The position numbers were made by a program, and so were the translations under genes. A stretch of DNA of 64,000 nt from Gigantopelta aegis (taxonomy: Eukaryota; Mollusca; Gastropoda; Neomphalida; Peltospiridae). The notes beneath the pieces were generated by a model. It saw nothing but the letters and a program-made list of their open reading frames with translations, was not told where the DNA came from and searched no databases. The stretch lies in the NCBI RefSeq assembly GCF_016097555.1, contig NC_054708.1, forward strand, positions 3,895,938 through 3,959,937, in the 5' to 3' direction. Positions 28,114-52,399 of this stretch are shown here, piece by piece. How positions within the stretch are numbered: position 1 is the stretch's first letter; each line of letters begins with the position of its first letter.

Positions 28114-31100
28114 TTATGATGCAAACTGTTTGGTTCCTACGTGCAGCCATACGGTATCAAAACTGATTGAATTGACTTTAAGAGACTTGCCATTTTGGGT
28201 AAGCTGTTTGTTACATCCGGCTTCTCCACAGCAGAAAAAACAGTGACCTTCAAATTCCTCATCCAGGTTACTACAACCCGGTGCATTGTTTTTCTCATAG
28301 CTATAACAACTCTGAAAAACACGATATTAGATATTAATTTGGTTTTGGTTAAAATGAGCAACTGATGAATGTATTTATAAAATTTCAATATTTTAGATAT
28401 ATATCTTATACAGTGTTCGTATTCCAGTAAAAAAAAGGCATGAGTTACAACATACTAATTATTATAGGATGTGAACTGCTAAATAAAAGTGTAGAATAGA
28501 CATTCACAGCATATCTGTAGTTTGGCTCACCTATTGCAAGTTACTAGACCAGTGTGTAACCAGTGCATTACAACTGGTATAGCAAAGGCCGTGGTATGTG
28601 CTATACTGTCTGTGGAATGGTGTTTATAAAACATTCCTTGCTACTAATGGAAATATGTAGCGGGTTTCCTCTTGAAGACTATACGTAAAACTTATCAAAT
28701 GTTTGATATCCAATAGCTGCTGATTAACAAATGAATGTGCTAGTCAAACAAAACTAACTAAACAGTGTGTATTGTTTATAGAAGTGTAAAATAGTTAATC
28801 ATACCTGCAGTTTGGCACACCTCTGGTCAATGAGCATTGTTAAATAGAAGTGTAAAATAGTTAATCATACATGCAGTTTGGCACACCTCTGGTCAATGAG
28901 CATTGTTAAATAGAAGTGTAAAATAGTTAATCATACCTGCGGTTTGGCACACCTCTGGTCAATGAGCATTGTTAAATAGAAGTGTAAAATAGTTAATCAT
29001 ATCTGCAGTTTGGCACACCTTTTGTCAATGAGCATTGTGAAATAGAAGTGTAAAATAGTTAATCATATCTGCAGTTTGGCACACCTTTTGTCAATGAGCA
29101 TTGTTAAATAGAAGTGTAAAATAGTTAATTATACCTGCAGTTTGGCACACCTTTGGTCAATGAGCATTGTTAAATAGAAGTGTAAAATAGTTAATCATAT
29201 CTGCAGTTTGGCACACCTCTGGTCAATGAGCATTGTTAAATAGAAGTGTAAAATAGTTAATCATACCTGCAGTTTGGCACACCTTTTGTCAATGAGCATT
29301 GTTAAATAGAAGTGTAAAATAGTTAATCATACCTGCAGTTTGGCACACCTCTGGTCAATGAGCATTGTGAAATAGAAGTGTAAAATAGTTAATCATACCT
29401 GCAGTTTGGCACACCTCTTGTCAATGAGCATTGTGAAATAGAAGTGTAAAATAGTTAATCATATCTGCAGTTTGGCACACCTCTGGTCAATGAGCATTGT
29501 GAAATAGAAGTGTAAAATAGTTAATCATATCTGCAGTTTGGCACACCTCTGGTCAGTGAGCATTGTTAAATAGAAGTGTAAAATAGTTAATCATACCTGC
29601 AGTTTGGCACACCTCTGATCAATGAGCATTGTGAAATAGAAGTGTAAAATAGTTAATCATATCTGCAGTTTGGCACACCTCTTGTCAATGAGCATTGCGA
29701 AATAGAAGTGTAAAATAGTTAATCATATCTGCAGTTTGGCACACCTCTTGTCAATGAGCATTGTGAAATAGAAGTGTAAAATAGTTAATCATATCTGCAG
29801 TTTGGCACACCTCTTGTCAATGAGCATTGTGAAATAGAAGTGTAAAATAGTTAATCATACCTGCAGTTTGGCACACCTCTGATCAATGAGCATTGTTAAA
29901 TAGAAGTGTAAAATAGTTAATCATATCTGCAGTTTGGCACACCTTTTGTCAATGAGCATTGTGAAATAGAAGTGTAAAATAGTTAATCATATCTGCAGTT
30001 TGGCACACCTTTTGTCAATGAGCATTGTTAAATAGAAGTGTAAAATAGTTAATCATACCTGCAGTTTGGCACACCTCTGGTCAATGAGCATTGTTAAATA
30101 GAAGTGTAAAATAGTTAATCATACCTGCAGTTTGGCACACCTCTGGCCAATGAGCATTGTTAAATAGAAGTGTAAAATAGTTAATCATACCTGCAGTTTG
30201 GCACACCTTTTGTCAATGAGCATTGTTAAATAGAAGTGTAAAATAGTTAATCATACCTGCAGTTTGGCACACCTCTGGTCAATGAGCATTGTGAAATAGA
30301 AGTGTAAAATAGTTAATCATACCTGCAGTTTGGCACACCTCTTGTCAATGAGCATTGTGAAATAGAAGTGTAAAATAGTTAATCATATCTGCAGTTTGGC
30401 ACACCTCTGGTCAATGAGCATTGTGAAATAGAAGTGTAAAATAGTTAATCATATCTGCAGTTTGGCACACCTTTTGTCAATGAGCATTGTGAAATAGAAG
30501 TGTAAAATAGTTAATCATACCTGCAGTTTGGCACACCTCTGATCAATGAGCATTGTTAAATAGAAGTGTAAAATAGTTAATCATGCCTGCAGTTTGGCAC
30601 ACCTCTGATCAATGAGCATTGTTAAATAAAAGTGTAAAATAGTTAATCATGCCTGCAGTTTGGCACACCTCTTGTTATTGAGTAGACCAGTGTCTATTGT
30701 TAAATAGAAGTGTAAACGTGTTAATCATGCCTGCAGTTTGGCACACCTCTTGTTATTGAGTAGACCAGTGTCTATTGTTAAATAGAAGTGTAAACGTGTT
30801 AATCATACCTGCAGTTTGGCACACCTCTTGTTATTGAGTAGACCAGTGTCTATTGTTAAATAGAAGTGTAAACGTGTTAATCATACCTGCAGTTTGGCAC
30901 ACCTCTTGTCAATGAGTAGACCCGAATCTGCGAACCATACGTGTGTTAGACACTGTGCCTGTAAATAAAATCACCATAGTATTGGTATTGAATTTTCATG
31001 GGTAGAAAAATACTGTTATTCTGCATTTAAAAAAAATCTGGTTTTAATAAAGATTTTAAAAGTTGGACAATTAAGCGAACACAATCGTATTATTTTCATA

Positions 31101-52399: not shown

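Follow-up and report, generated by a model that had tools for sequence, protein, structure and literature searches.

Minisatellites across exon edges in the gastropod Gigantopelta aegis as probable counterparts of lancelet 'mirages'

Introduction

The name 'mirages' for tandem arrays that repeat the splice junction of the exon they adjoin reportedly goes back to a paper by Canestro in 2002. Mirages are known gene by gene from lancelets, namely from Adh3 and the globin genes BflGb6 and BflGb9 (Ebner et al. 2010, PMC3087553) and from Adh, troponin C and PGBD5 (PMC3902484). In the available text of both reports, splicing is described as undisturbed and mirages are suggested as a way in which new introns could arise, with intron gain put forward for the globins (PMC3087553, PMC3902484). 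Here, we present an analysis of arrays of the same structure in a stretch of 64,000 nucleotides from the gastropod mollusc Gigantopelta aegis (NCBI RefSeq assembly GCF_016097555.1, contig NC_054708.1, positions 3,895,938 to 3,959,937 of the forward strand), which is termed the window in the following. The window harbors two neighbouring minus-strand genes (gene 1 and gene 2), a plus-strand paralogue of gene 2 at its right edge (gene 3), and five junction arrays designated A1 to A5. We consider it probable that these arrays are mirages, that is, minisatellites which arose from tandem duplications across exon edges and are carried along as tolerated passengers rather than as a selected splicing device.

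Related structures have been reported for human genes. A minisatellite with multiple splice donors in IFI6 (6-16) was described in 1995, as can be taken from the title cited in PMC2572611. Internal tandem repeats located at exon-intron boundaries are able to alter splicing and to create new introns in human segmental-duplication genes; in the accessible part of the report (PMC2812944) they differ from the arrays described here in being primate-specific and variable, with units of 30 bp on average, 4 copies and 27 intron modifications. For polyubiquitin UBC, the available text describes a tandem array of dual-specific splice sites with AGGT motifs (PMC10809524). This array likewise contains splice-competent motifs, but its repeats are coding and are spliced to a variable number, whereas the additional junction copies of the window (decoys) break the reading frame. 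Our literature search in the open-licence part of PubMed Central (PMC) returned no title on such arrays outside lancelets and humans. A further human case is the 37-bp repeat in intron 7 of F7 with a donor site per unit beside its exon, on which a separate search gave nothing. Both the IFI6 array, judged by its title, and the F7 array resemble those of the window in that their units carry a donor next to their exon, but they are single human loci. An initial annotation of the window, made from the sequence alone, had held that nothing like it was described; the lancelet mirages, which have the same structure, and the IFI6 minisatellite contradict this.

According to the available text on lancelets, the likeness extends to several details: many, though not all, copies keep AG or GT, the interior of the arrays is homogenised with the edges excluded, and the gene is functional, for which the intact reading frames are the only counterpart here. 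The arrays of the window appear to share those defining features of mirages that could be examined, homogenisation being judged by eye. They differ in size, with up to approximately 76 copies compared with the 3 and 6 given for two BflGb6 haplotypes. New features comprise the copy numbers, the fact that the arrays recur in adjacent genes, the evidence on age and, for a genome of 1.15 Gb, a first frequency estimate from a sample with a test against random seeding. If several percent of the exon edges in another animal carry mirages beyond random seeding, a single genome would allow direct tests of how minisatellites originate, how splicing copes with dozens of near-identical decoys and how introns are gained through duplicated boundaries. 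Gene annotation and the mapping of short-read RNA data may be unreliable at such exons.

Results

Arrays in the window repeat the junction of the exon they adjoin

Gene models were built by hand, with AG and GT as splice sites and a single GC donor. Gene 1 (21578..33233, minus strand) has nine coding exons with an open frame of 960 codons (960 aa), and gene 2 (38190..52399, minus strand) has ten exons with an open frame of 576 codons (576 aa). Four arrays were delimited in these genes by Tandem Repeats Finder (TRF), all on the minus strand like their source exons. A1 (28771..30922) starts with 78-bp units adjoining exon 4 of gene 1 (30887..30958, donor end at 30887), continues with 66-bp units, and repeats the donor junction of this exon. 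A2 (about 31426..32163) consists of 55-bp units with the acceptor junction of exon 3 of the same gene (31362..31444, acceptor end at 31444). In gene 2, the 49-bp units of A3 (40051..41275) carry the acceptor of exon 8 (39960..40056, acceptor end at 40056), and the approximately 76 40-bp copies of A4 (48560..51571) carry the acceptor of exon 2 (48386..48578, acceptor end at 48578), which encodes, as judged by eye, the core of a signal peptide. The initial annotation is thereby confirmed as regards the two genes, the four arrays and the unit lengths.

That annotation had also placed the exon's splice junction in every unit. TRF, gene models and alignment agree that all four arrays end at an exon and repeat its junction, the exon bases per unit numbering approximately 30-36 in A1, 19 in A2, only 6 in A3 and approximately 20 in A4 (together with approximately 20 intron bases). 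A usable site in every unit, however, did not stand: among the 32 copies of the A1 donor core, authentic one included, 17 have GT, 12 AT and 3 GC. AG is kept in 13 of the 15 A2 copies picked up by one anchor (again including the authentic one) and in 72 of 76 A4 copies, and CAG in all 24 A3 copies picked up by an anchor.

The derivation of the arrays from exon borders, likewise claimed before, is supported by the alignment of units to boundaries and by the comparison of the 30 bases at each junction with its own and with other introns. At least 24 of the 30 bases recur in the own intron for A1, A3 and A4; for A2 and A5 the best own-intron match is 23/30, below the counting threshold of 24, compared with 20 and 19 in other introns. 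Altogether, for 5 of 40 window junctions (20 introns) the match within the own intron exceeds that in other introns, and for the remaining 35 the own-intron match is not above mismatched controls. Junction membership is weakest for A3, with its 6 exon bases, and for A5, whose identical exon bases number 4 in its own gene and 12 in gene 4, a further paralogue of gene 2.

The units of A1 to A5 were no more alike than shuffled sequences in 10 of 10 pairwise comparisons, so the earlier statement that the arrays are unrelated and the event was repeated can be upheld. A blastn search of the array units over the window gave no strong match beyond each unit's own array, and on these two comparisons kinship of the units with each other or with another window repeat is not supported.

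Exact internal duplications of 325 bp in A1 and of 436 and 587 bp in A4 fit unequal exchange. By eye, the interior of the arrays seems homogenised with divergent copies at the edges, namely the 78-bp units beside exon 4 in A1 and diverged copies beside exon 3 in A2. A probable diverged relic of the A1 unit is located in the same intron past an interspersed repeat (28440..28560, minus strand), with weak matches of 90% over 20 and 87% over 23 bases.

A fifth array looks older than a gene duplication

A5 (62194..62334, plus strand) was missed in the initial annotation. Its 24-bp units with an acceptor-like junction lie in intron 1 of gene 3, 913 bases from exon 2 of this temptin paralogue (63247..63439, plus strand). 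Array and exon are separated by a TTAA-flanked insert of 887 bp (62336..63222, plus strand) with a terminal inverted match of 13/16, TTAA included. When the flanks of this insert are joined, the A5 units run in exact 24-base register as far as exon 2. Compared with the exon-2 starts of the paralogues, the units match that of gene 4 (P = 0.0055) but not that of gene 3 itself (P = 0.99), where only the first four bases agree; the exons 2 of both genes are identical in 51 of 63 residues. On account of this match to gene 4 and not to its own gene, A5 seems to predate the split between genes 3 and 4. A descent of both A4 and A5 from a single array at the homologous junction of exon 2 was also considered but is not supported, as their units are unrelated and A4 matches the exon of gene 2, A5 that of gene 4.

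Array placement within the window

All four noncoding arrays with at least ten copies (TRF score of at least 500) are located at junctions, compared with an expectation of 0.17 for the window or 0.47 for genic sequence. For the placement test, each array was collapsed to one unit and set randomly in the noncoding sequence with its 42 junctions. Among the 16 noncoding arrays with units of at least 20 bp and at least 3 copies, 4 span a junction, or 5 including A5, versus 0.61 expected (P = 0.0023 and 0.00019, respectively), and among all 25 noncoding arrays with at least 2 copies it is 4 versus 0.96 (P = 0.014). Since the selection of the window was due to its striking appearance, these P values should not be relied on alone.

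Junction arrays elsewhere in the genome

The assembly comprises 1,149,253,464 bases in contigs of up to 120 Mb, and lancelet genomes are much smaller; the interspersed repeats look molluscan. It contains 38 matches to paralogues of gene 2, part of which were retrieved. In gene 4, exon 2 is spanned by an array in which AG is kept in only 2 of the 5 decoys picked up by one anchor, and further arrays near exons 3 and 6 end short of them. In gene 5, arrays extend across the exon-4 donor and across the exon-7 acceptor, the latter array having a consensus unit devoid of AG. No array overlaps the matched exons of gene 6, and no spanning array was found at three more temptin-related loci (4 exon matches), which were kept out of the sample described below. 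Most junctions of the gene 2 paralogues are without an array. One of the gene 4 arrays that end short of an exon is a 30-bp array of 2.8 kb (L033-L034, 9355-12199 of the joined stretch), which takes up most of intron 5 and ends approximately 15 bases before exon 6. It was considered as a possible exon-5 donor array severed by an insert; the match is, however, to the end of exon 5 in gene 2 (P = 0.004) and not in gene 4 itself (P = 0.41).

An independent sample was drawn from Pfam matches, with at least 93 p450 and at least 136 protein kinase matches (229 together) among the best-scored candidates. Near full-length single-exon matches and small contigs were excluded. On small unplaced contigs, for instance C627, C666, C776 and C1387, many kinase matches show long open frames and possibly belong to a symbiont or contaminant. 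The sample covers 54 matches from two families (29 p450 and 25 kinase) at 49 loci with 105,900 bases. It was chosen blind to array content, the last nine loci being added after the first 40 had been inspected. Spans were judged, and the base units of three arrays set, by eye.

Spanning arrays were found at the donor of L049 (44 bp, approximately 20 copies), at the acceptors of L051 (50 bp) and L074 (65 bp), and at both acceptor and donor of L068 and L083 (acceptor unit of 80 bp in the latter). L083 and L068 are located in a p450 and a kinase gene; in each, it is one exon that has arrays on both sides. Thus, 7 of 108 match edges (approximately 6%) carry a junction array, a few of the 108 not being splice junctions; the true junctions number fewer than 108 because the matches in L050 and L087 end, by eye, at a stop codon. 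Including window and paralogues, junction arrays affect acceptors in A2 to A5, L051, L068, L074, L083, gene 4 exon 2 and gene 5 exon 7, and donors in A1, L049, L068, L083 and gene 5 exon 4. The donor copies have GTAAGT in 11/11 cases in L083, and the core is kept in 23/23 donors of L068 and 19/20 of L049.

Arrays close to but not across a junction were left out of this count. They occur at L069, L072 and exons 3 and 6 of gene 4, where they end approximately 10-45 bases before the junction (by eye). Also not counted was an array in L087 (823-1205; C10:61691701-61693000), a 140-bp repeat with approximately 2.7 copies and a unit similar to the 3′ end of a p450 gene, with its stop codon and the beginning of its 3′ untranslated region (UTR); it crosses a stop codon and contains no splice site.

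Among sample arrays with units of at least 20 bp and at least 3 copies, 7 of 17 span an edge, compared with 1.18 expected (P = 6.5e-5), and 5 do so when each locus is counted once (P = 0.0045). With the units given by TRF itself it is 6 of 16 (P = 0.00089; per locus P = 0.0063), and with the first 40 loci only 5 of 15 (P = 0.0015; per locus 0.011). When arrays with at least 2 copies are admitted in TRF units, 7 of 28 span an edge (P = 0.0053; per locus 0.074). The earlier claim that arrays favour exon borders beyond chance is hence backed by an excess in the sampled loci, but its strength shifts with the counting rule and the size of the excess is uncertain.

Decoy splice sites nearly always break the frame and show no excess conservation

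Use of a decoy would keep the reading frame in 0/19 cases in A1 (GT or GC decoys only), 0/12 in A2, 0/23 in A3 and 1/71 in A4, and would break it in 124 of the 125 cases tested. When every CAG in A4 was tried, the frame was kept in 2/148. An array of the UBC type, i.e. dual-specific splice sites in in-frame variable repeats, is not present among these decoys, of which 1 in 125 keeps the frame. The conservation of the GT or AG columns of the decoy core was ranked against the other columns of the unit. The mean mid-rank in eight arrays is 0.52, ranging from 0.26 (A3) to 0.93 (A1), with 4 to 74 copies per array and little power for the short ones; the comparison did not include A5, L074 or the L068 and L083 arrays on the donor side. 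In these comparisons, selection on decoys is not seen.

Discussion

In the explanation considered probable here, a short tandem duplication straddling an exon edge would act as the seed, and the array would lengthen by unequal exchange or slippage. As the extra junctions come to lie on the intron side, the exon-adjoining copy stays intact. Splicing of this exon-proximal copy would yield the normal protein, and the extra copies would be tolerated because it is this copy that is spliced. Many decoys keep GT or AG, so the spliceosome must choose among many near-identical sites; a preference for the exon-proximal copy, which gives the shortest exon, might follow from exon definition. We infer this mechanism of duplication, and likewise that seeding favours any kind of exon edge and not the splice site in particular.

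Several points weigh against this explanation. That the exon-proximal site is the one used is an assumption. In several arrays, all decoys picked up retain the core (11/11 in L083, 23/23 in the L068 donors, 24/24 in A3), which a functional model predicts as well. With uniform seeding, the sample would be expected to contain 1 to 2 edge arrays and not 7, which seems to call for some bias in seeding or survival. Finally, the sample P values range from 2e-5 to 0.074 depending on the counting rule and become weaker under stricter counting, and the sample is limited to 54 exons of two families, with spans judged by eye and two exons having arrays on both sides.

We tentatively suggest, as a possibility that we regard as less likely than not, that minisatellites of this genome arise preferentially at exon edges, with approximately 6% of the sampled edges (7/108) affected and a several-fold excess over random seeding. 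The driver would be either splicing or transcription at the junctions or the step from coding to noncoding sequence. The coding arrays of gene 1 described below, the array at the stop codon of L087 and the arrays near exons suggest that exon edges generally may be the seed, although the sample is small. If exon edges are indeed preferred and the gene number is animal-like, thousands or more such arrays would exist per genome, and together they would keep a large number of surplus splice sites and partly formed introns in store.

Alternatively, transcription or splicing at the junction might itself produce the tandem copies, through R-loops, stalled replication or RNA-templated repair, with splice sites as hot spots. 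Such a splicing-linked duplication would account for the exon-edge excess in a sample chosen blind to arrays, for the effect on both donor and acceptor of one exon at two loci (L068 and L083), and for units of contiguous intron and exon sequence as from DNA or unspliced RNA. The L087 array, which crosses a stop codon and has no splice site, the near-junction arrays (L069, L072, gene 4 exons 3 and 6) and the coding arrays of gene 1 suggest, by contrast, a wider exon-edge effect. We regard splicing-linked duplication as rather unlikely.

That a minisatellite-rich genome drops some arrays on exon edges by chance, and that a rich window then got noticed, appears improbable to us. The array content of the genome is very high, the window was picked as striking, and one way of counting the sample (TRF units, at least 2 copies, one count per locus) gives only P = 0.074; most of the other sample counts are nevertheless significant (7/17, 6/16 and 5/15 arrays; with at least 3 copies, also per locus at 0.0045 to 0.0063).

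The initial annotation had further proposed selection for many competing splice sites, which would tune intron removal or yield unproductive isoforms and thus act as a splicing buffer or timer. The retention of AG or GT in many decoys (A3 24/24, A4 72/76, L083 donors 11/11, L068 donors 23/23, L049 donors 19/20) would be in agreement with this, as would decoy use that breaks the frame almost always, like a poison splice. Against it stand core columns that vary no less than the other unit columns, the loss of GT from 15 of 32 A1 copies, the unit without AG at exon 7 of gene 5 and the paralogue junctions, mostly free of arrays. With decoy cores that are not better conserved and a broken frame in nearly every case of decoy use, a selected buffer is not supported, and we consider it very improbable. 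False expansion by assembly error, to which the exact 436- and 587-bp duplications in A4 may owe something, is hardly credible as the cause of the arrays in view of distinct variants among units, contigs of up to 120 Mb and the same structure at unlinked loci.

Genes of the window and further observations

Gene 2 matches the Pfam families Temptin_C and both copper type II monooxygenase domains (Cu2_monooxygenase, N and C). For exons 1-5 of gene 1, encoding a Ly6/uPAR-like first domain, two Ly6/uPAR models score slightly under their cut-offs (31.2 versus 31.5 bits and 22 versus 24.8). A related three-finger model, 'snake toxin and toxin-like', scores slightly over its own cut-off (23.8 versus 21.2). 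A Pfam search with the second cysteine-rich part of gene 1 (exons 8-9) gave nothing significant. Two repeats of this gene are fully coding, both on the minus strand: in exon 6 (26190..27636), approximately 25 copies of a 57-bp unit encode 19 aa rich in His, Asp and Gln, and in exon 7 (24888-25009), 8 Thr/Pro-rich residues are repeated approximately 5 times. Just left of the window (C10:3880001-3896500, positions 13817-15759; L041/L042), a 67-bp array with 29 copies has a donor-like GTGAGC in its consensus unit. Within the window, frames at 6013-6330, 14871-15128 and 59025-59540 resemble, by eye, reverse transcriptase and Tc1/mariner transposase.
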